Assembly: GCA_016782645.1 (NCBI GenBank)
Contig: JADHYC010000011.1
Span: 1 to 48,960, forward strand
Length of the DNA stretch: 48,960 bases
Reading direction: 5' to 3'
Source: Fidelibacterota bacterium
GTDB taxonomy: Bacteria; Fidelibacterota; UBA2242
The position numbers were made by a program, and so were the translations under genes. Below, one piece after another: positions 22,397-37,082 of the stretch. The notes beneath the pieces were generated by a model that did no database searches, was not told where the DNA came from, and saw nothing but the letters and a program-made list of their open reading frames with translations. Each line of letters starts with the position of its first letter. Position 1 is the first letter of the stretch.

Positions 22397-23343
22397 TTAG
22401 AAAATTGGTATAATGGACAAAAATGGTTGCGAATTTGATAGAATTTCATTTATCAATTTAACTTTTCGATGATACTTCAAACCAGCATGCACCCTTGTTT
22501 TCGTCTTCAAATTTGAGAACACTCCTTCCAAAGAATTGATGGTATTGGGTATGTTTAAATCAGGATAATCTTGGAAGGTAAATAAAAATGGTAAATTGGT
22601 TTTCAAACTACGATAAGCGCTTCTGATTCTACGATGAGTGAAATGACATTTTTGAGTATCAGGATTAAAGGTTTTCTCTCTTAAAAATTCACTCCATTTT
22701 AGATTCCAATCTTCTAACAACTTTTTAAAGTCGTTTTTGTTACTGGTAGATAATTGCGCTACAATGTTCTTTAGTTCTTTACCAGCTTCCAGTTTGGGAT
22801 TTTGGGTAACATATCTTTTCACAATAGCAACCTGATGATATTGACACATTTGGATAGGTATCGACCCAAAACAATAAAACAATCCTCTTTTACCGTCACA
22901 AACAATGGCTCTGACTTTCCAGCCTTTTGATTCAAGATCTTTTATTCCTGTCTGATAATCATTAAGAGTTTCGTGTCCTACAAATTGCCAGGATAGGTTT
23001 CTGTTTCGGTAATGATCCCGAAAAACCATTACCCCGTAATTCCTTCCAAAATAACATGTATCCATGACTATCACTGTCTTGCATGGTTTATACTTCGGTA
23101 TGAACGGCAGATACAAGTCAATTCTTCGCTGAATAGTCCTTGCGGATAATCCAAACCTTTTGGCCAGCTCCTGGTATGTTTAAAACATATCGATTCCAAA
23201 GCTTGTGAATTTCTACGGTCTTATCTCTACCTTGATTTTGAAATGCTCGGTGACATTCCAAACAAATATATCGCTGCTTTCTGTTCCGCTTACCATTTTT
23301 TTGTTCGATGAGATTGACAATAGAGACATATTCTTTTACTCAA
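22397..23343 (-). pseudogene. Transposase (Zn-ribbon + DDE), two frameshifts
   Basis: Read from a TTG at 23343 (GGAG upstream), the product begins SKRICLYCQSH, half of a zinc ribbon. At a run of seven A (about 23294-23300) the frame must slip by -1 to continue NGKRNRKQRYICLECHRAF, the other half. Near 23180 a second shift is needed to reach QELAKRFGLSARTIQRR (helix-turn-helix) and the DDE core: VIVMDTCYFG, AIVCDGKRGL, QMCQYHQVA, and NTINSLEGVFSNLKTKTRVHAGL with the Glu. From 23116 to the stop the frame is intact (239 residues). The stop lies 12-14 bases outside the left terminal repeat, so the C-terminal residues are encoded by the repeat and host DNA. The A7 run alone could be a programmed slip, but two breaks make it a pseudogene. 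Confidence 0.85.
22411..22430 (+). repeat. IS terminal inverted repeat, left
   Basis: TAATGGACAAAAATGGTTGC; it matches the complement of the right end over all 20 bases and diverges immediately inside and outside. Confidence 0.9.
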
Positions 23344-23409
23344 TTTTAAACTCCATATTAAATATTGGCTCTTAAATGCTTTAATATTAACTGTTTTGTA
23401 TTGCTTTTA

Positions 23410-23429
23410 GCAACCATTTTTGTCCATTA
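23410..23429 (-). repeat. IS terminal inverted repeat, right
   Basis: GCAACCATTTTTGTCCATTA; the exact complement of the left repeat. It is the end proximal to the transposase start. Confidence 0.9.
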
Positions 23430-23807: not shown

Positions 23808-25643
23808 TTATATCCTAAAAACCAAATTTTGAAATTTCGGTTCTTGCCATATTAAAATCAATTTTCTAAAACAATTGTATTCAGAAGGAGCAATTTCTGA
23901 TCTCTTCAATATTAGACTTCTTTTTAATATTAAAGTATTATCACCTTCCTTTTCAATCGAAATAGCAACTTCTCCAACATTATTTTTCAACTTAGTGTTA
24001 AAATAAGGAGTTACCAACCAAAGACTCTCCGGTATTTTCATCGATACAATATAACTTTCAATAAAAGACGATTGCAAAGATATTGGTGTTACCCTTTCAG
24101 TTTGAGCTGCCGAAACATTCGAACTGTTAAATCCGTGCATAAATTCAGGAAGTTTCCATTTAATATATCCATTTGAAATTTCTAAACCTTCAGTCGAACT
24201 AAATTCAGCATAAAAGTCACTTTCTTTACTATTTAACAATCGAACCTCTATTTTATCAACATTAAAATTACTTATTGAACTTTCAATTTCACTTTTTGCA
24301 GAATTGTTATCTGAACCAAATTTGAATGATCTACTAAAGTACCCGCAAAATGTAAAACTTCCCTCTCCAGTCATCATTAAGTTATCATCCAATTCTATCT
24401 TTAGAATCATTTGCTTATAGTTGTCCTTATGTCCATAATCTCTAATCTTAGAAAAAATCTTCTTTGCTTTCCTGATATTAAATAGAGTTTTATTGGAAAT
24501 GAACGGCATCAAATCTCCTTCCTGAGAATGAGTAGGAGCCAGATATACTTTTTGCATATTTGGATAGCGGCAAATAACAACAAAATCATCAAATTGATAT
24601 AATGATGGCACTTCTACACTAAATTCTTTATACCTTGAAACAAGAGCAGGATATGCTTTGGCTCCAGAGTATTTCAACAAGGCTGTTAATAAGACAGCCT
24701 TTTCCCATCCTGTTCCAACATTTTCCATAAAAACTTTTTCAGCTGATTTTGCTTTAAATCCATAGATCCATGGCTTACAATTAACTTTTCCCATTTCATC
24801 TGAAACAATTTTTTGAAGTCTCAACATCTTGGACTGAGAATCCAAAATTCCCTCTAACTGATTATTTATAATCCGGCGTGAAGAGGCACTTAAATCCAGG
24901 GAATCTCCCATGAATGAATCTATGTAATCAAAAATTATATCCCACGAATCCACAGTTGAAAAAATAAGTCTTGGAATAAATTCTCCCCATTCGGGTTGAT
25001 TTCCTTCTACCGGTATTCCCGGAAGATCTTTTAAAAACCAAGTATATATTTTAAAATTATCCCGTATCTCCAACTTTGGCTCAATATCAGTATTGAAGAA
25101 CTTATAATTCAGATTCTCACTATCTGGAATAATCACACGAACCGTCATCTTGTGTATTGGACTATAATCTGCGAATATTTCTTCTCCCATCAATCCTGGC
25201 ATAAACTCCTTATCAGTCTGGAGCACATAGGATAGATTAACGGTACATCCTCTCTCCAACCCGACATGAGTTATCACCATTTCTCGAAAATGATTAAAAG
25301 AGGGCGCGTCAGCTGCAAATCTTGGAAGTACTTCATTAAAAGCATTAGGTGGAGATTGAAATTTCTTCCCATCCTTCATCATTGTTTCTGATTTTTTAAT
25401 TTCAAGAGTCTGGAACTCTGGATTATGAACAATGAAGGATTCACCATAATGTCTAGTAACTGCAAAATATGAGTTTAAACGTAGTTTATGATGATAGGAA
25501 AGAATAGTACTTCCGTCCATCTTTAGTTTATATTCTTTAACTATTTCAATATATTCTGCATCAGGAATTTCACCGAAAAGGACAGAAAAACAAGATAGCA
25601 GGATAAATGATATGAACATTTGAAATCTATAATTTCTCCTCAT
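23808..25643 (-). CDS. Exported DUF3857 protein with degenerate transglutaminase-like domain
   Basis: After a signal peptide (MRRNYRFQMFISFILLSCFSVLFG) comes a DUF3857-like beta domain (about 25-215), a transglutaminase-like region (about 300-400) and a C-terminal beta-rich part. Compared with the adjacent upstream protein, the catalytic Cys position reads GTGWEKAVLLTALLKYSGA (Trp), the His position FDDFVV (Asp) and the Asp position LAPTHSQ (Ala/Pro). All three triad residues therefore seem lost, and the protein is likely a structural or binding partner in the periplasm. GGAGGGGAG precedes this ATG, which overlaps the stop of the upstream gene by four bases (ATGA), so translation is coupled. 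It ends near a terminator hairpin. Confidence 0.82.
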   Translation of the reverse strand: MRRNYRFQMFISFILLSCFSVLFGEIPDAEYIEIVKEYKLKMDGSTILSYHHKLRLNSYFAVTRHYGESFIVHNPEFQTLEIKKSETMMKDGKKFQSPPNAFNEVLPRFAADAPSFNHFREMVITHVGLERGCTVNLSYVLQTDKEFMPGLMGEEIFADYSPIHKMTVRVIIPDSENLNYKFFNTDIEPKLEIRDNFKIYTWFLKDLPGIPVEGNQPEWGEFIPRLIFSTVDSWDIIFDYIDSFMGDSLDLSASSRRIINNQLEGILDSQSKMLRLQKIVSDEMGKVNCKPWIYGFKAKSAEKVFMENVGTGWEKAVLLTALLKYSGAKAYPALVSRYKEFSVEVPSLYQFDDFVVICRYPNMQKVYLAPTHSQEGDLMPFISNKTLFNIRKAKKIFSKIRDYGHKDNYKQMILKIELDDNLMMTGEGSFTFCGYFSRSFKFGSDNNSAKSEIESSISNFNVDKIEVRLLNSKESDFYAEFSSTEGLEISNGYIKWKLPEFMHGFNSSNVSAAQTERVTPISLQSSFIESYIVSMKIPESLWLVTPYFNTKLKNNVGEVAISIEKEGDNTLILKRSLILKRSEIAPSEYNCFRKLILIWQEPKFQNLVFRI

Positions 25644-27625
25644 CTCCCCTCCTTTCTGATAAGAACTATACAATCAGACGCAACTTTTTTTACTGATCTA
25701 ACTGAATTTCTAAAACTTTCCCAATCCTCAGGAATATAAATTCGCTTTTTCAATGTTAATCGCTGCTTAAATTTCAGCTTATTACTTTTTACCTTGTATT
25801 TAGCCTCAAAAGCTGCACCACTGCCATCAACATCTTCATATTCAGGAACAACATCTATTTTATATGATTTTGGAAAAGTTATCGTCTCTTCAAATTCAGC
25901 CAATCTGGAACATGTCGTTCTAAAACCATATTCTCTTTCTTCTAATTCCATATTCATGAAAAGATGATGATTTATCGTTCTATTCCAGAAGGGATAAGTT
26001 GCCACAACAGGTGTAAAACGTATTTCATTTTTACTAATCTGAGCGTATTCTGGAATACGATATTTAATATTAATCTCCATCGGTCTTGAAATGTCATAAG
26101 GATCTTGATACTTCAGTTCAAGAATTTCTGTATTTGGAGAAATATGATACATCATTTCCTCAAAAAATGATTTCCAGGTTATCTTGAAATTTCTTAACAA
26201 AGCTCTCCTAATTCTGGCATCAGATTGCTTTTCCGCCTTTATGCTAAATTTTCCCTCAAGAGTACCGTTATTTTTTAATATTGAAGAACCTTTAACACGG
26301 TAATAATGTTCTTCAGGCGGTGAAATCGGCGTTGATTTAAGACCCGCACCTTCAGGAACTCCCATAAGATACTCTTGCTGCTGTTCAGCACTTGACCAGA
26401 GTTCACGAACTCCTGGTACCCATGTCGGATCAAGTAGCATATATGAACCATCTGGCTTTTTTAACAAGGTAACACTGTGATTAAATTGATCTGCCGGAAT
26501 ACGGTCTATTCGGGAACCAGCCATCGTCATCGCAGCAAAAGATTCAAATCCCGCAGCTCTTAGCATCGTAACAAGCATTCCTGCCTTATCCTTACACACT
26601 CCACACCGATCAGTAAAAGTCATACCGCCTTTATGAAGTGTATAACCTTCCCCTGGTCCCATTGACAAACCTGAATATCTAATTTCTTCGGCAACCCAAT
26701 GCGTCAGTCGAGAAATTTTCTCCATATTCGATTTAGAGCCTTTAATAATCTCATCTGTTTTCTCCTTTACTTCAGGTGTTACATCAAAACTCCCGTAATC
26801 CTCATTTACACCATAAAACCATATAGATTTCGCCTGCCAATCAGGTGAAGTAGAAAGAAGAAGTTTTGGAGCTACATCGGATACCGCTACCATATCCGTT
26901 TCTCTCTCAAATGGCTTAATATTTTTCTTACTCCACAAATAAATCGTTTTGTTATCAGAGAATATAACAGACGATTGCAATTCTCCGTTATATATTTCAT
27001 ATTGAAGTGGTTTATCTTTTGGAAGAGTAACTTTATAACATTTCTCTAACACAGGAATTGATGACCAAAACTCGACTATGTCATAAAAATGTCCCTTCAT
27101 TGGAGGAATATACTTCTCATCTTCCTCATCATATAGAAGCGCGTAGGTAAATCCTTTCCGAAATACTTTTACTTCAACGGCATCACCTACTTCAAGCCTT
27201 CCGATCTTTGCCATTTTTTCTCGTGCTCTCCAGTAAATCCACCTTGCAGGAGCCGGATAATCAACGATATCATCTGAATTAACCTGTATTATCCTACCGT
27301 CATTTTTATAAATAACAACCGACTGAATGTCAACGTATGCCGATAATGAATCATAACTAAATTTTACTGTTCTCAAATCTCGAGCACCAACTGGAGTAAG
27401 AACCTTGGTTAATTTGTGGATCCAGACATAACTTAACCCGGATTCCTTAACGTCAACTTTTGTGCTATCGAAAATTACAACCGTATTAGAACCAGGAAAG
27501 TCTTCTGCAACTCCAGCATTGTTGATCATTTCAAATACTTCCGAAGGCTTCTGACCCCTTGCCATATTTATATATAGTATAAAAACAAAAAGAAAAATCC
27601 TTACACTTTTAAATCTGATCCTCAT
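25640..27625 (-). CDS. Exported DUF3857/transglutaminase-like protein, intact triad
   Basis: The domain order is a signal peptide (RIRFKSVRIFLFVFILYINMARG), a DUF3857 domain (about 50-230: WIHKLTKVLTPVGA, YPAPARWIYWRAR, LEVGDAVEVK) and a transglutaminase/protease-like core (about 300-420) with TDRCGVCKDKAGMLVTMLRAAGF (Cys), FNHSVTLL (His) and MLLDPTW (Asp). A beta-rich C-terminus follows. This family is common in Bacteroidetes and relatives; it is predicted to act on peptides or proteins in the periplasm, but the substrate is unknown. An ATG four codons upstream exists; this one has GGAG six bases before it. It is coupled by ATGA to the degenerate partner downstream. Confidence 0.85.
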   Translation of the reverse strand: MRIRFKSVRIFLFVFILYINMARGQKPSEVFEMINNAGVAEDFPGSNTVVIFDSTKVDVKESGLSYVWIHKLTKVLTPVGARDLRTVKFSYDSLSAYVDIQSVVIYKNDGRIIQVNSDDIVDYPAPARWIYWRAREKMAKIGRLEVGDAVEVKVFRKGFTYALLYDEEDEKYIPPMKGHFYDIVEFWSSIPVLEKCYKVTLPKDKPLQYEIYNGELQSSVIFSDNKTIYLWSKKNIKPFERETDMVAVSDVAPKLLLSTSPDWQAKSIWFYGVNEDYGSFDVTPEVKEKTDEIIKGSKSNMEKISRLTHWVAEEIRYSGLSMGPGEGYTLHKGGMTFTDRCGVCKDKAGMLVTMLRAAGFESFAAMTMAGSRIDRIPADQFNHSVTLLKKPDGSYMLLDPTWVPGVRELWSSAEQQQEYLMGVPEGAGLKSTPISPPEEHYYRVKGSSILKNNGTLEGKFSIKAEKQSDARIRRALLRNFKITWKSFFEEMMYHISPNTEILELKYQDPYDISRPMEINIKYRIPEYAQISKNEIRFTPVVATYPFWNRTINHHLFMNMELEEREYGFRTTCSRLAEFEETITFPKSYKIDVVPEYEDVDGSGAAFEAKYKVKSNKLKFKQRLTLKKRIYIPEDWESFRNSVRSVKKVASDCIVLIRKEGR

Positions 27626-27763
27626 TATGCTCTCCATTTCATTAATGATAGAATTGACCCAGAAGATATAAATTACAATACTTATTTAAAAACCCACATA
27701 AAAATGTTTATCAGAGCGAAATTGTAAGCCATATCGCTAAAAATAAATAAATGTAGCTATAAA

Positions 27764-28292: not shown

Positions 28293-28682
28293 CTATCTCA
28301 CACTAACCCACACTCTTCTATTATGTGGTCCATCAAATTCACAAAAAAATATTCCCTGCCATGTTCCCAGTTGTAGCTTTCCATTTTCAATGATAAACTG
28401 CTCTGAACAACCAACCAGAGTGGATTTAATATGTGCATCAGCATTCCCTTCCATATGACTATATCCCTCTCGATATGGGACCAGCTTATTAAGCTTCATC
28501 AAAATATCAGAGGCTACATCAGGATCAGCATTTTCATTGATTGTTATAGCAGCTGTGGTGTGCGGACAGTAAATCGTGCAAATACCCTCTTGTGTATCAC
28601 TTTCTCTAATGACATCTCTTATCTGCGAAGTCATATCAACCATTTCAACTCGTGAACTGGTCCTTACTGATATCTCTTTCAT
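28293..28682 (-). CDS. yjbQ: YjbQ / UPF0047 family protein
   Basis: A 129-residue single-domain protein of the UPF0047 family. Members have weak thiamine-phosphate synthase activity when overproduced, and databases call them 'secondary thiamine-phosphate synthase'. The true role is unclear. Landmarks are YCPHTTAAITINENADPDVASDI (His and acidic residues of the metal site), SHMEGNADAHIKSTLVG, and WQGIFFCEFDGPHNRRVW. The length and motifs are complete. It is divergently placed from nothing and separated from neighbours by more than 100 bases on both sides. The thiN gene is 15 kb away, so no local thiamine operon exists. Confidence 0.93.
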   Translation of the reverse strand: MKEISVRTSSRVEMVDMTSQIRDVIRESDTQEGICTIYCPHTTAAITINENADPDVASDILMKLNKLVPYREGYSHMEGNADAHIKSTLVGCSEQFIIENGKLQLGTWQGIFFCEFDGPHNRRVWVSVR

Positions 28683-28758
28683 AGATACTCCTCAATATTA
28701 AACTATATATTTATCTATGAGTCCACTTAAAAAAGGTTATAAAAGCAATTAATTAGAT

Positions 28759-28840
28759 GTCATCCTGAGTTCATCGAAGGGAGACATCCTCTAAGCACAC
28801 TTCGATAACATCACAATAAATTGTGATTACTCAGTATGAC
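28759..28840. repeat. Intergenic palindromic element (GTCATCCTGAG type)
   Basis: Outer arms GTCATCCTGAGT and ACTCAGTATGAC pair over 12 bases with one mismatch. Inside are a TCACAATaaATTGTGA hairpin and further short pairings such as TCGAAG/CTTCGA. The whole could fold as a long cruciform or RNA. 'GTCATyCTGAG' motifs are a common dispersed repeat in environmental genomes; copy number here is unknown. Confidence 0.6.
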
Positions 28841-28899
28841 AGGAATAAATGTTAGTTTTTTACGTGAACTCATCTATATAAAACACCATAAAACACGGA

Positions 28900-28918
28900 A
28901 GCACCTCTTTAAGGTGCT
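28900..28918 (-). terminator. Possible terminator of the small lipoprotein gene
   Basis: A 7-bp stem AGCACCT/AGGTGCT with a five-base loop lies 66 bases past the lipoprotein stop. On the minus strand it is followed by TCCGTGTTTT, a weak U-tract. It could equally act on the plus strand. Confidence 0.4.
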
Positions 28919-28983
28919 CTGGTTATTTTCTTACCCTTTTCCAAAAGAATCAACAAGATAGCTATTCTTAATCCGTGATCACT

Positions 28984-29163
28984 CTATTTCTCCTGAGCTT
29001 GAGCTGGAGTTGTATCAGCTGGAGCTTCTTGAACCTGTGTTGTATCAACTGGAACCTGTTCCTCAACCTTTGTTTCTACTTTCTCTTCCTTTACCTTCTT
29101 CTGACAACTTAAACCAAAAATGAGCAAACCAAGAATTATTAAAAACATTAAAAACTTTTTCAT
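28984..29163 (-). CDS. Small acidic/proline-rich lipoprotein
   Basis: A 59-residue protein with a lipoprotein signal (MKKFLMFLIILGLLIFGLSC; the lipobox Cys is the last of these). The mature part is low complexity: charged KKVKEEKVETKVEEQ then Ala/Pro/Thr/Gln repeats (VDTTQVQEAPADTTPAQAQEK, partly a repeat of V/ADTT). AAGGAGGG sits in front of the ATG. I cannot assign a function; such lipoproteins often act as envelope spacers or are surface-exposed. Confidence 0.8.
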   Translation of the reverse strand: MKKFLMFLIILGLLIFGLSCQKKVKEEKVETKVEEQVPVDTTQVQEAPADTTPAQAQEK

Positions 29164-29386
29164 CTCACTACCCTCCTTAAATATTAACAATTCTTTCTTT
29201 TCCCCATTTATTTTAAAACTTACAAAATTTCTAATAAAATTTAATCAATATTCCACAAAATCCCCAGAAGATAAATATCTGTCATTTTAAAATATTAAAT
29301 CTAAATTCTTGAAAAAAAATCAAATCCACTACCAGTCACAATGTTAAATTATAGTTTTCAATTTGCACTTTGAAATTTGCAATTCT

Positions 29387-30634
29387 CTATGTCTTCCGCT
29401 CCTTCTTCCTCGCAGATGGAAAAAGAACATTATTCAAAATTAGCCTGTATCCAGGTGAATTTTTATGTAGCTCTAAACGAGTTGGTGGATCACCTACATA
29501 ATGCCTATAATCTTCCGGATCGTGCCCCCCTAAAAAAGTGAACGTGCCTTTACCATAATTCCCATTAATATATTTCACCTGTTCCCCACTTTCTACTTCA
29601 CCGAGAATAACGATATGATTCTTAATTTTATCACGTCTGAATCCAGTCGTCTGTCCCATAAAACCTTTAACAACTCCAACATGACTCTGAGTAAGCATTG
29701 ACGGAACAGGATCATATTTTGCGGAAAATTCAAACAGCGTAAAATAATCCGCTTCAGCACCAGGAGCGACAGTTTGGAAACTGGGTGGATAATCAATATC
29801 GGAATATTCATAAAGCATCGGATCAGTGTACAGTTTAAAATATTCAAAAGCGAACGTCTTCGTAAAATCTAATTTCTCATTCGCTTGAGGATTCACAGGA
29901 TCGCCATCAAAAACTGATGCTACAATATCAACATCTTCTGCTGCTAATGCAATATCTAAAGCATCGGTAGCAGAACACATTGCGAATAGGAATCCTCCCT
30001 GACCTATGTATTTTTTTATCGCCCTTGCAATTGCTTTTTTCTCCTCAGATACTTTACTAAATCCCAATCGGGCAGCCATTGCTTCAAATTCAGCTTTCTG
30101 TTTTTTATACCAATCATGATTTCTATAAGTTGCATAAAACTTCCCATATTGTCCTGTAAAATCCTCGTGGTGTAAATGCAGCCAATCATATTCAGGCAGC
30201 TTACTACTTAATATGTCTTCATCCCATATTAGATCATATTCAATTTCTGCATAAGTTAGAGCAAGAGTAACGGCATCATCCCATGGTTGCTTATTCGGTG
30301 GTGAATATATAGCAATTTTAGCCGCCTTTTCCAGTAATGCAATATCCATATTACTTTCATCAATTGTAGAATAAATTTGTAGAACATGTGCCGGATTCGG
30401 CTCTTCAAAAGTAACTCCTCGAAGACGTAACTCTTTAATAATACCTGTATATGAATCCATTAGAAATGAACCACCACGGTAATTCAGAAGCCATTCAACA
30501 TTCACTCCCTGTTTAAGAACCCAATATGTTACCCCATAAGCTTTCAAATGATCAGTTTGTGCAATGTCCATAGGTATTAAAATTTTTTGAGAATAAGCTG
30601 ATACTACCAGCAAAAATATTAGAATGCATTTCAT
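29387..30634 (-). CDS. Secreted protein of the family labelled 'asparagine synthetase B'
   Basis: A signal peptide (MKCILIFLLVVSAYS) precedes a 400-residue protein. The family, found in Bacteroidetes and relatives, is often labelled 'asparagine synthetase B', but no glutamine amidotransferase (N-terminal Cys) or ATP-pyrophosphatase (SGGxDS) motif is visible, and it is exported, so that name is very doubtful. Conserved-looking segments are NYRGGSFLMD, SPPNKQPWDDAVTLALTYAEI, LHLHHEDFTGQYGKFYATYRN, GGFLFAMCSATDALDIALAAE, GFMGQTTGF and FTFLGGHDPEDY. The GGFLFAMCSATD part and the final GGHDPE resemble flavodoxin-like or GATase-like folds. Gene context is the TPR-DUF4175-DUF4159 block upstream. The substrate and reaction are unknown. 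Confidence 0.8.
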   Translation of the reverse strand: MKCILIFLLVVSAYSQKILIPMDIAQTDHLKAYGVTYWVLKQGVNVEWLLNYRGGSFLMDSYTGIIKELRLRGVTFEEPNPAHVLQIYSTIDESNMDIALLEKAAKIAIYSPPNKQPWDDAVTLALTYAEIEYDLIWDEDILSSKLPEYDWLHLHHEDFTGQYGKFYATYRNHDWYKKQKAEFEAMAARLGFSKVSEEKKAIARAIKKYIGQGGFLFAMCSATDALDIALAAEDVDIVASVFDGDPVNPQANEKLDFTKTFAFEYFKLYTDPMLYEYSDIDYPPSFQTVAPGAEADYFTLFEFSAKYDPVPSMLTQSHVGVVKGFMGQTTGFRRDKIKNHIVILGEVESGEQVKYINGNYGKGTFTFLGGHDPEDYRHYVGDPPTRLELHKNSPGYRLILNNVLFPSARKKERKT

Positions 30635-30828
30635 CGTAATCTTAATAATGGTTTATTCCATTTTCGATTGTTGATTTTCTATTATTTATTGTTCATTAGT
30701 CATTGGCCATTTTAAACTTTTAACACTTTCGATGTTCGAGATTCTTTATTTTAGATTTTGGATTTTTCACTCCGCATTCAACATTCAACTTTCGACTCTC
30801 AACTTCAGGTACTTTATTATAAACTTCT

Positions 30829-32844
30829 CTAACTTTCTCTCTCCAAATTAGCATTTTTCTGAAACTCCCTTAGTCGCTTCCTCGCTAAATCCGTATATAA
30901 TGAATATGGGTATCTCTCTAAAATCAATTCATACCAACGGCTTGCTTCATTAATGTTATTATCTCTATAATGTGCCACTTCCGCCATCATAAAAGATACT
31001 TCATCTGCAAGCATTTCGCCAATATCCAAAATAGGTTCGATAGTTCTCTCCGCTTCTTCTCTCTTACCAAACTGCAACTGAATTTGAGCCAATCTAAATC
31101 TTGCAGCACTGGCAACAGGAACATCTGGATAGTTTAATAATAAAAATTTATAAACCTCTCCAGCCTCAGAAAGTTTATTCTGCCGAACGAGTAATTCACC
31201 TTTAATAAAATCTTCAAAAGCTTCCTTCCCCATTTTATCTACATTTGTATAGTTCTCATCAATAAAATTCATAAACTCGAATACATCATTAAAAAGCGGG
31301 TTTTTTATTCCTAACAGCGCAAGAATTTCATTCTTATTCGCAATGATTGAATCTATTTCTCCTGTAAGAAACTCAGTTAGCAAAGCATGTACTTTCAACG
31401 ACTTCTCAATACCAGTTCCTTCCCTTTTTCTTACTGCACTGGTAAATATATCAGAAGCAGCAACAGGATCACCTTTAGCAAGTGTAACTTCACCTATACG
31501 TATCTTACAATTATCTCTGAACTTTCTATCCCGACTCACCTCATACGCTTTTCTATAAAGTTTCAATGCACCATCAAAATCCCTTGTAACTTTAAACCTG
31601 AGTTCCGCTAACCTGTATAATGCCTGAGCGGAATATATACTCCTGGGAAGAGTTACTATTAGAGAATCATATATAGAAAAGGATTTTTGCAGATGATGCT
31701 CACTAACGTCAACGCTCTGTACAAAACCTGTATTAAAAAAAAGATTGCCAGGGAAAAAATATGTTAACGGTGAAATAGATTGCCTGTTTATTACCGATTT
31801 TTCTGCAGCATCAGCCAACCCTAAAAGCGCTCTTGGAGCAACCTTCTGAAATTCACTCCTTTGAAGAATTTCCGTATACAATTCCTCTGATTTTTCATAC
31901 TCCCCTTCATGTAAAAGATCTTTAGCAAAATCTAAAATCTCATTCCCCTTATTACCAGTTAAAGCTTCAATATAAAAAATTTCACTTGCTGCATTATTAT
32001 ACCGTTTGAATTTAAAAAGTATATCTCCTCTTAATCGATGTAAATCAGGTTTTGAGCCTAATTCACTTATTTCCTTGCATATTAATGAATCAACACTAAT
32101 AAAAATTTTCTCTTCAGATGGAAATCTAAGTATCTGCCTTGAAGCAATCTTATAATTTCTTGGATTTCCCCGTGCAGATAATAAATACTCGCGGGTAGAT
32201 AAAATATATTCACCCCTTATCATATAGAAACTTGCCAGCTCTAAAGAAAAAAGATAACTCTTATTATGATACTCCCTCGCTTGAATAAATAACTTTTCCG
32301 CCCTGTCATATAATTGATGAGCAATCATTCCATTAAATAGAGTCCTGTAAAAAGACACCGAATGATTGAAACGTTCAAGAGATTCATCCCAATATTTAAA
32401 AGCTAAAAAGGTATCCCCTCTTGCATAATAGAGTTCTCCTAAATCCACAATAGCATTCACATTATTAGGATTATATTCAAGATATCTATTTATCACATGA
32501 TTAAGCTCAGCGAAATCCTTACTCTTGAAAAGGAGATTCACATAACGATTATAGTACGAATAATTACCGGGCTTTTTCTCCACAATATACCTGTATATTT
32601 TCATTGCTTGTTCTACTTGCCCTTGTCTTTCAAGTCTCTGAGCTAAACGAAGCTTTGAGTTTAATTCTCTGTCTATCTGTTTTGTCGGTACCCATTTCTG
32701 AGCAAAAACAGTGCTGGATGTAATTAGTAAAAGAACAAATATTAAACACAAAACACTATTCGTAAATAGTTGATAATTAACACCCTGCCTCTGGTGGGAA
32801 ACAGTCCCGCTGAAAACGGAAATTGATAATCGATAATTCTTCAC
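30829..32844 (-). CDS. Exported TPR-repeat protein
   Basis: The mature protein is almost all tetratricopeptide-like helices (for example LERQGQVEQAMKIYRYIVEKKPGNYSYYN, and a final block with GKREEAERTIEPI and NINEASRWYELILERYPYSLYTDLARKRL), a scaffold for protein interactions, probably in the periplasm. The GTG start overlaps the stop of the DUF4175 gene by four bases. The first 28 residues before the hydrophobic segment (LCLIFVLLLITSSTVFAQ) are unlike a normal signal peptide n-region and are encoded by palindrome-like DNA, so a TTG start nearer the hydrophobic core is possible. It forms a unit with the DUF4175 protein. Confidence 0.85.
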   Translation of the reverse strand: MKNYRLSISVFSGTVSHQRQGVNYQLFTNSVLCLIFVLLLITSSTVFAQKWVPTKQIDRELNSKLRLAQRLERQGQVEQAMKIYRYIVEKKPGNYSYYNRYVNLLFKSKDFAELNHVINRYLEYNPNNVNAIVDLGELYYARGDTFLAFKYWDESLERFNHSVSFYRTLFNGMIAHQLYDRAEKLFIQAREYHNKSYLFSLELASFYMIRGEYILSTREYLLSARGNPRNYKIASRQILRFPSEEKIFISVDSLICKEISELGSKPDLHRLRGDILFKFKRYNNAASEIFYIEALTGNKGNEILDFAKDLLHEGEYEKSEELYTEILQRSEFQKVAPRALLGLADAAEKSVINRQSISPLTYFFPGNLFFNTGFVQSVDVSEHHLQKSFSIYDSLIVTLPRSIYSAQALYRLAELRFKVTRDFDGALKLYRKAYEVSRDRKFRDNCKIRIGEVTLAKGDPVAASDIFTSAVRKREGTGIEKSLKVHALLTEFLTGEIDSIIANKNEILALLGIKNPLFNDVFEFMNFIDENYTNVDKMGKEAFEDFIKGELLVRQNKLSEAGEVYKFLLLNYPDVPVASAARFRLAQIQLQFGKREEAERTIEPILDIGEMLADEVSFMMAEVAHYRDNNINEASRWYELILERYPYSLYTDLARKRLREFQKNANLERES

Positions 32845-35800
32845 TCAACTTCCTCTTTTGACAGTGCCTCAAAATAATGGCGTATTATTTCCTCATATTC
32901 CCTGGAATAATCATCCCGCATTGCTTTCTCTAAATTTTCTTGTAGAAGGCTTCTCCGTTCTCCAAGATCTTTGGGCAGTTCACCGGGAGATGTACGAACT
33001 ATATCTTCTCCTGTTTTGCTTTTCCTCTCCTTTTTAAAACTTTGAGTGCGTAAGGACTTCTGAGCATCAAGCAATCTGGTTAAAATACGCTGCTGTCTTT
33101 CAATTGTACGACGCAATATTTTATTATTTCGCAAATCTTTAATGACCTCATCCATATCTTTAGCAATTCCGCCAAGATCACCAGTTTGATTTGTACTTTC
33201 TCTTATCTCTTCTTGAAGCTGTTCCAATGATTTTCGCACCTGCCGCTGACGAGCTGCAATACGTTGAAGTACCATTTGCTGACCGGGAGAACCCATTCCA
33301 AGCATCTGTGTATCATCATTGATCCCCTCTTGCTGTCCAGCCATTTTCTGTAGCTGTTTAAGATAATTTTCAAAGCCTGAAGATGAACCGCTTTTTTGAA
33401 GATTCTGCATCTCTGACATGAGCGCTATTGCAGTACTATTAAGAGCCTCCATAGCCTTTTTTCCCTCCTGAGAGGCTTTATGTGGATTACGGTTTTCCAT
33501 TTGACCGATCGCATTCTTCATCTTCGAAGATGCTTTTCCAAAACCTTTGCCAATTCTTGGAGTAACTCCAAAGGTTTTATTAGAAAGAGCAATTACATCC
33601 TTAACGATATGTCCCAGATTTTGATAAATTCGCTGTTGATCAACAGCGATATCCATCAAGTGTTCACTTTGACGTGGTACATCTTTCACAACCTTACTCA
33701 TAACTTCCTGACTCTGAGAAAGCTGTAGCGTTTTTTTAATAATACGTTGAAAATCCGCCATTACTTCATCCATATTCCTTTTATTGAACTCGTCACGGAA
33801 GTTTCTCATCATATCAAAAAGTTCTGACAGATTTTCCTGTGATTGTTGAGAAGGCTTCTGTGCTTTTGATTTATTACCTTTTTTCAATGACCTCTGAGAC
33901 TGCTTTAGGTCTTTCAGAAGTCCCATATCTTTCATTTCTTCAATTATCTTAATCAATTCTGCATTCGGCATTAACGGAAACTCAGTCATTTCATTTTCTG
34001 TTCTTTCCATCAAATCCTGAGCAATTTCTGTATCCCTGTGAATTGATTCCTCTTCCTTTGACAGCTCAGACATTTTGCCATAATCATCTGAAGAAGTCTT
34101 GTCCAGTTCATTATTCAAATGTTCCTGTCTCTTTGCAAGATCATCAAATCTTTTCACCAACTCATCGATTGACTGCTCAATCTTTATTCGCTGAAAGAGT
34201 TTCAGCATTCTATCTAACTCTTTTGAAAATTCTTCTTGCGAACTTCGGAACTTTTTCAAAGCAGCTTGAATTTCTTTAGGATCCATATTCTCTATTGCTT
34301 TTTGAAGTCTTTCCATAGCTTCTCTTAACTCCGGAGTCATTATATCTTGAAAGGCTTCTTGGAGCTGCATGTATTTTTCAAAAGTTTCCTTATTAAAAAG
34401 TTGATTTTCCTTAGCCCTTTGAATTAAATCTTCAAGATGATCACTAATTTCTGATAATTTTTCTCCGGCTTCTCGAGTCTTCTTTATTTCTTGCTCAAGC
34501 TGCGCTTTTTGCTCCCACTTAATACTCGAATCTTTTAAAAGTTCAAGTGATACTTGTTCCAAAACCTCTTTAGTAGCCTCTAACTGTTCTAATATCTCAT
34601 CTCCCGTTTCACTAATTTCATCTTGCTGTTCATTTATTCCAGCAAATAGGTCATTAAGTGATGGAAATCTTGCTCTTAGTTTTTTTGAAGAAGTCTTCTT
34701 AGGACCATTAACAATGTCATTATCATAAATTTCCACTTTAAATTCCACTACATCTTCTGGAGAAAGACCTAATTCGCTAACATCCCATATATAATAAAGT
34801 TCTTGAAGAGTCAATTTATTATCGTAAAGTGGAAAGGGGATCTCATTTTCAGCCTGCTCTTCTTCTCCATATTTTTTTATCAATTCATACTTAATAACTG
34901 CTTTTGAAAAACCATAATCGTCTCTAACTCGTATGCCTAAAGAGATTTCCATAGACTCATTCAAATCGATATCCTCCGTTGGTGAAAGTAAAATGATCAT
35001 CGGATAGGCATCAAGTGATATACGTATTCTATATATCACAGGATTTAGATTCGAAACGCCATTTTTATCTTCAATTACGATTTTAAATTGATCATCATGA
35101 GTCACCTGAAATTTGCCGTGAACATAAAACTTTTCTACAACAATTGGAATTACTCCCGCTTTTTCAAACTCAAGATTTCCAGCTGAAAGCGCTTTGTTTG
35201 AAAAAACATCCATCTGTATTTCTGTTCCTGGTAAAACATAAAATTCCGTGATATTCGACTCCTGAACCTGATCATCAAGTCCAGTGTATTCTGGAAAATG
35301 AAGCAGCGATTTTACACTAAGAATTTCTGGACGATTAGTCACTCGGATAGTATCAAGCCCGGAACTGATACGTTTCCAAGGAATAAATAGAGAATTATTC
35401 TCTACAAAGCCTTCATAAACCACATCCTTCCGCACAGACCCTAAACTAAATTCTGACTTTCCACATGAATCAACAGAAAGGTTTTCCTCTTGAACATAAT
35501 CCTTATAAATCATGAATAACTTTATATGCTTAGGGAAATGCCCATTACAATGAAATACAACTCCTGTACTATCTCCACCAAGAATACCAAATGTTCCCGA
35601 TTCAGATGTAATTGAAAATGGCTCGGGAATGGGAAAATCGGTACCAGGATGCAAGAGTCGATTTGCGGATGATGAAAAAAAATTCGGTGATACAGCAAAT
35701 AACAAACACACCAAAATGACATTACCTAAAAACAGGTGAAATCCTTTTTTTACCTCATGACGAGGAATTATTGTTTTAAAAGAATGTGTCTCAATTTTTT

Positions 35801-36236
35801 TAGCAATATTTTCCATTGACCGAACTACAAGTGCACTGGAAAAACCCTTTTCTCCGTTCACAACCATATCCCTTAGTTGAAGAACATTTAAAAGTGAATC
35901 TTTTACGTTTTCATACTTCTTCCCTATCATTTCTGCCAGGCGAAAATCGCTAAATGAAGTTATTCTATTTCGAATAACCATTATTGATAAAAGAAAAGGC
36001 GTAATTAAAAATATAAGTCCGAATACTGAGAAAAAAATTAATATTGGGTTGCGGATATTCATATTCAGGTATAAAAATCCTTCAGCTAAAACAATTAAAA
36101 AAGCAATTGAAATGATAAGGGAAAGCGCTCGAAAAATTCCTTTAATTAATACATACCAACCAAATCCACGACGCAGATTTGAGAACTTTAATGAAATAAA
36201 ATCTGAATATTTATGTAATTGTTCGATGTTTGTCAT
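32841..36236 (-). CDS. Large DUF4175-family membrane protein
   Basis: Three N-terminal hydrophobic segments (about 25-50, 55-80 and 160-185) anchor a 1131-residue protein. A beta-rich, Ig-like region (about 200-500) is followed by a long coiled coil (about 520-1100) with many Gln, Glu, Lys and Met, including EMSKVVKDVPRQSEHL-like helices. This is the DUF4175 layout. In many FCB and related genomes it lies beside DUF4159, TPR, vWA, DUF58 and MoxR genes, a membrane complex of unknown function sometimes linked to stress or aerotolerance (Bat). The gene is coupled to the TPR gene downstream and lies 150 bases after DUF4159. Confidence 0.87.
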   Translation of the reverse strand: MTNIEQLHKYSDFISLKFSNLRRGFGWYVLIKGIFRALSLIISIAFLIVLAEGFLYLNMNIRNPILIFFSVFGLIFLITPFLLSIMVIRNRITSFSDFRLAEMIGKKYENVKDSLLNVLQLRDMVVNGEKGFSSALVVRSMENIAKKIETHSFKTIIPRHEVKKGFHLFLGNVILVCLLFAVSPNFFSSSANRLLHPGTDFPIPEPFSITSESGTFGILGGDSTGVVFHCNGHFPKHIKLFMIYKDYVQEENLSVDSCGKSEFSLGSVRKDVVYEGFVENNSLFIPWKRISSGLDTIRVTNRPEILSVKSLLHFPEYTGLDDQVQESNITEFYVLPGTEIQMDVFSNKALSAGNLEFEKAGVIPIVVEKFYVHGKFQVTHDDQFKIVIEDKNGVSNLNPVIYRIRISLDAYPMIILLSPTEDIDLNESMEISLGIRVRDDYGFSKAVIKYELIKKYGEEEQAENEIPFPLYDNKLTLQELYYIWDVSELGLSPEDVVEFKVEIYDNDIVNGPKKTSSKKLRARFPSLNDLFAGINEQQDEISETGDEILEQLEATKEVLEQVSLELLKDSSIKWEQKAQLEQEIKKTREAGEKLSEISDHLEDLIQRAKENQLFNKETFEKYMQLQEAFQDIMTPELREAMERLQKAIENMDPKEIQAALKKFRSSQEEFSKELDRMLKLFQRIKIEQSIDELVKRFDDLAKRQEHLNNELDKTSSDDYGKMSELSKEEESIHRDTEIAQDLMERTENEMTEFPLMPNAELIKIIEEMKDMGLLKDLKQSQRSLKKGNKSKAQKPSQQSQENLSELFDMMRNFRDEFNKRNMDEVMADFQRIIKKTLQLSQSQEVMSKVVKDVPRQSEHLMDIAVDQQRIYQNLGHIVKDVIALSNKTFGVTPRIGKGFGKASSKMKNAIGQMENRNPHKASQEGKKAMEALNSTAIALMSEMQNLQKSGSSSGFENYLKQLQKMAGQQEGINDDTQMLGMGSPGQQMVLQRIAARQRQVRKSLEQLQEEIRESTNQTGDLGGIAKDMDEVIKDLRNNKILRRTIERQQRILTRLLDAQKSLRTQSFKKERKSKTGEDIVRTSPGELPKDLGERRSLLQENLEKAMRDDYSREYEEIIRHYFEALSKEEVE

Positions 36237-36253
36237 TTTAGTCTATATACCGG

Positions 36254-36290
36254 TCATGGTGAGTCCGCAAGTCGGCGGATCGAACCATGA
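36254..36290. repeat. Intergenic palindromic element (TCATGGT...ACCATGA)
   Basis: Arms TCATGGT and ACCATGA enclose a second pair TCCGC/GCGGA, giving a two-step stem with the small loop AAGTCG. It lies between the DUF4159 and DUF4175 genes inside one operon, where it would be transcribed. Confidence 0.65.
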
Positions 36291-36383
36291 TTCAGGTTTT
36301 CCTGGAATGAGTACTTCTGTTACTTTCACACTCCTTAACACCAATAATAACCGTATTAAGTCTTATTATTCCTATTCAAATTA

Positions 36384-37082
36384 TCATTTCATCAATGAAT
36401 ACAAAATTATATTTGTACCCATTTTCAATGCTGCCTGACGTATCTCTTCAGGATCGCCGTGAACTTTAGGATCTTCCCAACCGTCTCCTAAATCACACTC
36501 ATAAGTGTAAAACACAATCAATCTCCCTTTATAAAAAATTCCAAACCCCTGAGCTAGTTTACCATCATGTTCATGGATTTTTGGTAAGCCTTTAGGAAAA
36601 TCATAAAATATATGAAAAATAGGATGATTAAAAGGTAACTCAATAAGCTCATTATTTGGGAAAACACGCTTTATTTCCCTTCGAAATGACTTATCCATCC
36701 CGTAATTATCATCAGCATGTAAAAAACCACCGGATTGCAAATATCTACGCAGTCTTAATACTTCCTCATCACCAAATTTTATATTTCCATGTCCCGTCAT
36801 ATACAAATAAGGATAGGAGAAAAAATCATTGTCCATTATAGAAACACGAATCTCCTCGGGATAGGCATCAATTGGAGCATTTTCTTTAATAAATTTCAAA
36901 AGGTTAGGTAATGAACTCGGATCACTGTACCAATCGCCGCCACCATCATATATTAGCCTGGCAATTGTAAATTTTCCATAGGTAGAAATATCTTGTGCAT
37001 AAGAAATGGCAATATACAGAACCAAAAATAGCGCAAGTGCAAAACAAACTCTACTAAATTGCCTAATTCTATTTCCTTTCAT
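36384..37082 (-). CDS. DUF4159 protein, exported
   Basis: An N-terminal hydrophobic segment (about 11-29, ending SYAQ) is a signal peptide or anchor. The remaining 200 residues match DUF4159: ARLIYDGGGDWYSDPSSLPNLLKFIKENA, PYLYMTGHGNIKF, LRRYLQSGGFLHADDNYG (a flavodoxin/GATase-like turn), ELPFNHPIFH and YTYECDLGDGWED. The family function is unknown; it usually accompanies DUF4175, TPR, MoxR and DUF58 genes. Here it begins the minus-strand run DUF4159-DUF4175-TPR, with no MoxR or DUF58 gene upstream in the window. Confidence 0.9.
   Translation of the reverse strand: MKGNRIRQFSRVCFALALFLVLYIAISYAQDISTYGKFTIARLIYDGGGDWYSDPSSLPNLLKFIKENAPIDAYPEEIRVSIMDNDFFSYPYLYMTGHGNIKFGDEEVLRLRRYLQSGGFLHADDNYGMDKSFRREIKRVFPNNELIELPFNHPIFHIFYDFPKGLPKIHEHDGKLAQGFGIFYKGRLIVFYTYECDLGDGWEDPKVHGDPEEIRQAALKMGTNIILYSLMK

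Follow-up and report, generated by a model that had tools for sequence, protein, structure and literature searches.

A predicted transglutaminase-fold enzyme and its catalytically degenerate paralogue are encoded side by side in several bacterial phyla

The window analysed here, a stretch of 48,960 nucleotides from Fidelibacterota contig JADHYC010000011.1, carries on its minus strand two overlapping genes for predicted exported proteins with a DUF3857 domain, designated A and B. The features of the pair are as follows.

25640..27637, minus strand: gene A, predicted exported DUF3857 and transglutaminase-core protein with intact triad, 665 aa
26909..27430, minus strand: DUF3857 domain of A (Pfam match)
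26510..26758, minus strand: Transglut_core domain of A (Pfam match)
26594..26596, minus strand: codon of catalytic Cys348 of A (motif GVCKDKAG); Cys in 83/83 homologues
26477..26479, minus strand: codon of His387 of A (FNHSV); His in 83/83 homologues
26429..26431, minus strand: codon of Asp403 of A (LLDPTW); Asp in 83/83 homologues
25640..25643, minus strand: ATGA stop/start overlap of A and B (the B ATG at 25643 overlaps the A TGA)
23808..25643, minus strand: gene B, predicted exported DUF3857/degenerate transglutaminase/DUF3858 protein, 611 aa from ATG
25017..25517, minus strand: DUF3857 domain of B, its best-conserved part (Pfam match and column information)
24708..24710, minus strand: Gly312 of B, in the Cys column (VGTGWEKA; alignment with A)
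24585..24587, minus strand: Asp353 of B, in the His column (QFDD; alignment with A)
24537..24539, minus strand: Ala369 of B, in the Asp column (YLAPT; alignment with A)
23817..24167, minus strand: DUF3858 domain of B (Pfam match)

The original prediction had placed the pair at 23808-27625. Both open reading frames are present there on the minus strand, with A taken as 25640-27637; position 27625 is an alternative in-frame ATG, four codons in, and is an equally plausible start. Residue numbers of A refer to the 665-aa version. A matches DUF3857 (PF12969; 109 bits, 2.9e-31, curated cut-off 24.6) and Transglut_core (PF01841; 37.1 bits, 4.2e-9, cut-off 23), while DUF3858 (PF12970) reaches only 14.6 bits in A, under its cut-off of 27. 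The Cys, His and Asp that A had been said to carry in the expected motifs are indeed there, as Cys348-His387-Asp403, and are invariant across 83/83 homologues. A is predicted to be a Cys-His-Asp enzyme of the papain/transglutaminase fold (a peptidase, amidase or acyltransferase).

B was described as sharing the domain order of A and starting at an ATGA overlap, and both features were seen. DUF3857 scored 95.5 bits in B (4.9e-27, cut-off 24.6) and DUF3858 75.4 bits at its C-terminus (cut-off 27); the Transglut_core Pfam profile gave no match in B, which is thus not recognised as an active enzyme of this family. A and B are homologous over ~250 residues at 23% identity (7e-13), as distant paralogues, and no DUF3857 gene other than these two was found in the source genome. 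With regard to the triad columns of B, which had been predicted to hold Trp, Asp and Ala/Pro, Asp353 and Ala369 stand, but the Trp does not: the ungapped alignment of CGVCKDKA (A) with VGTGWEKA (B) puts Gly312 opposite the catalytic Cys, and Trp313 lies one column off. Among 81 B homologues, the Cys column holds mainly Glu (15), Pro (14), Gln (12) and Ala (10), the His column Asp (26), Lys (13), Asn (13) and Glu (10), with His in four rows, and the Asp column Ser (52) and Ala (11), with Asp in four rows; other residues make up the remainder of each. Triad residues elsewhere in B would contradict a pseudoenzyme; a replacement triad was looked for and none was found, and no Cys is conserved across the B homologues. 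The invariant residues of B are instead Gln78, Pro98, Asn103, His126 and Pro499. Most of these lie in DUF3857, and Arg120 and Glu121 are almost invariant as well.

A hydrophobic signal segment, scored as a 12-mer within the first 37 residues and taken to indicate export, was found in 75/77 A and 65/67 B homologues. These hydrophobic N-termini suggest an exported, presumably periplasmic location of both proteins. A lipobox-like motif is present in about 10/67 B homologues, compared with 1/77 for A, and B may therefore be membrane-anchored in some carriers.

To determine the distribution of the pair, GTDB species genomes were scanned with an A profile and the best-scoring 80 loci were taken. These belong to Neomarinimicrobiota, Calditrichota, KSB1, Ignavibacteria, one 'Chlorobiota' MAG and Bacteroidota, and their A proteins share 50-65% identity (95% for a same-genus copy). 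Together with relatives from the source's own phylum they comprise 83 distinct A loci. B lies directly downstream of A in 83/83 loci examined, spanning five phyla. It is split into two ORFs in one of them (L084) and cut by the contig end in another (L087); in the remaining 81, A and B are on the same strand, and in 64 they overlap or lie within 30 bp. Relative to the source copy, Neomarinimicrobiota from outside the genus are 60-66% identical in A and 33-41% in B. Note that one record titled Alphaproteobacteria (L102) has the same pair lengths and spacing as a Bacteroidales MAG locus (L105), with nearly the same scores; because of this near-identity it is probably a misnamed bin. Pairing across several phyla suggests a two-part enzyme.

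Since the 80 GTDB loci were the best-scoring ones, we also made an even draw of 393 Bacteroidales genomes and searched these independently for A and for B, using part of the sequence of PDB entry 3kd4 (see below) as the B query. A was present in 100/393 genomes, and B was found in 98 of these 100 once diverged copies had been read. Eleven genomes had first appeared to contain A without B, nine of which were resolved as having a diverged, cut or unlinked B; in the other two (G223, G231), A is at or near a contig end. B without A was seen in a single genome (G364), with B 324 bp from the contig start. Seven genomes (G088, G201, G297, G308, G375, G439, G115) contain both genes though unlinked; in G115 there is no B beside A, and a C-terminal B fragment lies at the edge of another contig. 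The expectation that the pair would be conserved and coupled in relatives is thus borne out, both by the 83/83 loci in five phyla and by near-perfect co-occurrence among the 393 Bacteroidales genomes. Co-retention after unlinking is the strongest argument that sequence offers for a functional dependence of A and B.

Functional dependence need not mean contact. A and B might share an exported pathway and form no complex, B being a stand-alone binding protein (for example a DUF3857/DUF3858 receptor for substrate or ligand) and A an enzyme that works on the same material independently. The seven genomes with unlinked genes fit pathway partners as well as subunits, co-occurrence would also be seen for non-touching proteins of one pathway, and the uneven occurrence of lipobox-like motifs means that the locations of A and B may differ. 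The B homologue 3kd4, moreover, crystallised without A. However, near-absolute one-to-one co-occurrence, stop/start overlaps and common ancestry are more typical of subunits, and other tandem DUF3857 pairs follow the same active/inactive rule (see below). We consider separate pathway partners unlikely.

Clustering of neighbours in 76 loci revealed no third partner gene, none besides A and B being common to more than one third of the loci. A larger neighbour cluster (25 loci) was rejected as a partner gene, as it consists of antisense ORFs inside A and B. From the absence of a conserved third neighbour, the A-B pair seems to be a self-contained module. Upstream of A, the window encodes at 28293-37082 YjbQ (UPF0047), an exported protein (29387-30634), a TPR protein, DUF4175 and DUF4159. 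The 29387-30634 protein is conserved, being 72% identical in L031, and has no Pfam assignment. The gene order DUF4175-TPR-29387 ORF-YjbQ-A-B recurs in L031, from one other family within the same taxonomic order. Also in this region, at 28984-29190, is a small ORF of 68 aa when read from a TTG, the ATG version of which starts MKKFLMFLIILGLLIFGLSCQKK. It contains a lipobox-like LSC and a Q/A/P/T-rich tail partly encoded by a 30-nt direct repeat (28998-29057), and looks like a small lipoprotein. Just downstream of B, an insertion sequence assigned to the IS256 Zn-binding variant group occupies about 22412-23429. Its transposase ORF is at 22397-23116 (NF048019 match, 299 bits), and its 23-bp inverted ends are at 22411-22433 and 23407-23429. 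In the same-genus genome G001 this site is empty.

The two proteins are under different constraint. In A, mean column information is 2.77 bits for DUF3857, 3.44 for the catalytic core and 2.24 for the C-terminus; the corresponding values in B are 2.36 (DUF3857), 1.63 (transglutaminase core) and 1.44 (C-terminus). A was more conserved than B in 2145/2145 pairwise comparisons, with a mean identity of 58% versus 34%. This reversed constraint is the pattern that would be left by an enzyme and a partner without catalysis but with a retained binding domain. The A and B distance matrices correlate with r = 0.91 (mirror-tree); as adjacent genes share their history and such a correlation is expected from shared descent, we set this value aside as evidence of contact.

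Structure models of the monomers reached a pLDDT of 93.7 for B and 88.2 for A. The best PDB fold match of both is 3kd4 (E 3.5e-47 for B, 1.9e-32 for A), and B belongs to the 3kd4 family (TM-score 0.85 over the target; phmmer 7.9e-48). Likewise, 3kd4 is a member of the B family, scoring 446 bits against the B profile versus 18 bits against the A profile. This protein is BDI_1141 of Parabacteroides distasonis, deposited as a 'putative protease', and is the structure behind DUF3857/DUF3858. It is without the triad, having GTPLEIA at the Cys site, then Q/T and S, and its closest sampled relatives (61-62% identity, in G272 and G355) have A directly upstream. The GTPLEIA motif and the B-family match thus mark the solved structure behind these two domain families as the inactive half of a pair.

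After 3kd4, both models best match the folds of Ost1/ribophorin I and M1 aminopeptidases, at low TM-scores, a hint that DUF3857 may be similar to the M1 N-terminal domain. This bears on whether B could itself be catalytic through a relocated or different active site, which might lie near His126 in DUF3857, or in DUF3858. His126, one of the five invariant residues of B, is its sole highly conserved candidate nucleophile or base, and Arg120 and Glu121 could be counted in its favour. However, B has no conserved Cys, and the beta-rich domain that contains its conserved residues has as its closest non-family folds the M1 N-terminal domains and Ost1/ribophorin I, in which we know of no catalytic sites. 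An active site of this kind in B is highly improbable. The least confident segments of the A model (166-169, 321-330 and 342-345) consist of nearly invariant sequence beside the active site. These loops may be ordered by B or by substrate; against an ordering role of B, their low confidence might instead stem from substrate binding or from the depth of the alignment.

Further tandem DUF3857 pairs were found in Bacteroidales and in the source's phylum. Some are intact-then-degenerate (L132, L133) and others degenerate-then-intact (L134, L135, L137-L139); a further type, in Neomarinimicrobiota, is a diverged pair of the latter order (L033, L035). As a less selective test, 20 DUF3857 loci other than A/B were read from 60 drawn Bacteroidales genomes. 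Two DUF3857 proteins are encoded at 17/20 of them, with exactly one complete triad in 17/17. These loci vary in detail: the second member of L189 keeps the Cys and has Tyr for His, the two DUF3857 genes of L187 are about 1.9 kb apart, and profile matches are weak (72-100 bits) for the partners in L191 and L199-L201. In a tree, pair types 1 and 2 stand apart from types 3 and 4, at least two losses of the triad being needed, and a single origin of all inactive members was rejected (AU p = 0.005). Because of long tree branches, recurrence itself is more certain than how many losses took place.

ORFs of about 1220-1290 aa (L036, L037, L127-L131), roughly 1250 aa and matching both profiles, were considered as A-B gene fusions and rejected, and they provide no fusion-based support for contact between A and B. 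In the two that were scanned (L036, L037), TPR repeats precede DUF3857 and a transglutaminase core; the Cys motif is intact in the similarly long L127-L131. These long ORFs may represent a single-chain counterpart of the two-gene pairs.

The gene order of the tandem pairs is also relevant to a regulatory role, in which B would be an inhibitor, chaperone or pro-domain-like partner of A that keeps the cysteine enzyme off or shields the cell. Obligatory pairing and the faster divergence of B would suit such a role, as would the unusually conserved loops around the A Cys that are modelled as poorly ordered in A alone. In contrast, the active member comes first in types 1 and 2 and the inactive member in types 3 and 4, which follows no inhibitor ordering logic. 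Moreover, B is full length with all domains kept rather than a small inhibitor, and its constraint falls on DUF3857 rather than on any surface known to obstruct the active site. A regulatory B is quite improbable.

The original prediction of an enzyme/pseudoenzyme pair, in which only one member has the catalytic residues, is well supported at the sequence level, because no triad was found at another place in B and the pairing is conserved, including in genomes with unlinked genes; that the two form a complex is what we infer from this. In the reading we prefer, with a probability of roughly 0.6, A and B together make up one exported enzyme, with A as its catalytic and B as its non-catalytic subunit. 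B would be an anciently duplicated relative of A that lost the active site and kept DUF3857 and DUF3858. Translational coupling would ensure joint synthesis of the two proteins, followed by Sec export and assembly into a heterodimer. There B, mainly by its conserved DUF3857 face, would hold the substrate or order the active-site loops of A, and A would do the chemistry; in one version B would order the loop before the Cys, the invariant YSGxSMGxGEG...DRC.

Several known systems resemble parts of this arrangement. Other bacterial Transglut_core (PF01841) enzymes share with A the signature of the core fold as well as the Cys-His-Asp triad; unlike them, A has an N-terminal DUF3857 and an obligatory inactive partner. 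In M16 pairs, one subunit is active and one degenerate, the alpha/beta mitochondrial processing peptidase being a two-protein M16 peptidase. Another example is PqqF/PqqG, in which the two proteins heterodimerise and PqqF can also act on its own (PMC12997753). The likeness of these two-protein peptidases to the putative A-B complex would be in how they work; fold and chemistry differ, with zinc in M16 and cysteine in A. SVBP is a partner protein needed by vasohibin. The latter is an enzyme of the transglutaminase-like cysteine protease superfamily (PMC4866520). Vasohibin/SVBP is thus, like our reading of A-B, a transglutaminase-like enzyme with a partner protein, but it is eukaryotic, and SVBP is a small peptide unrelated to the enzyme rather than its degenerate paralogue. 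No published description of the A-B pair was found in the open-access literature. Enzyme/pseudoenzyme pairs are an already known kind; new, within that literature, are the fold family, the breadth and the recurrence.

In conclusion, we see an even chance that the DUF3857 proteins of FCB phyla are a broad, hitherto undescribed class of exported cysteine enzymes with two obligate subunits, the catalytic subunit always needing a paralogous dead subunit, with a split that arose at least twice and with the sole solved structure (3kd4) being the dead half. The substrate of A is likely to be both widespread and basic in these cell envelopes, as the catalytic half is >50% identical across phyla. Two DUF families (DUF3857 and DUF3858) would become a testable two-component enzyme, in which the protein to assay is A, together with its partner B. 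The pairing would also explain the missing active site of the only solved structure, which carries the label of a protease. The repeated active/inactive split in one family may be a useful case for why enzymes keep dead paralogues.
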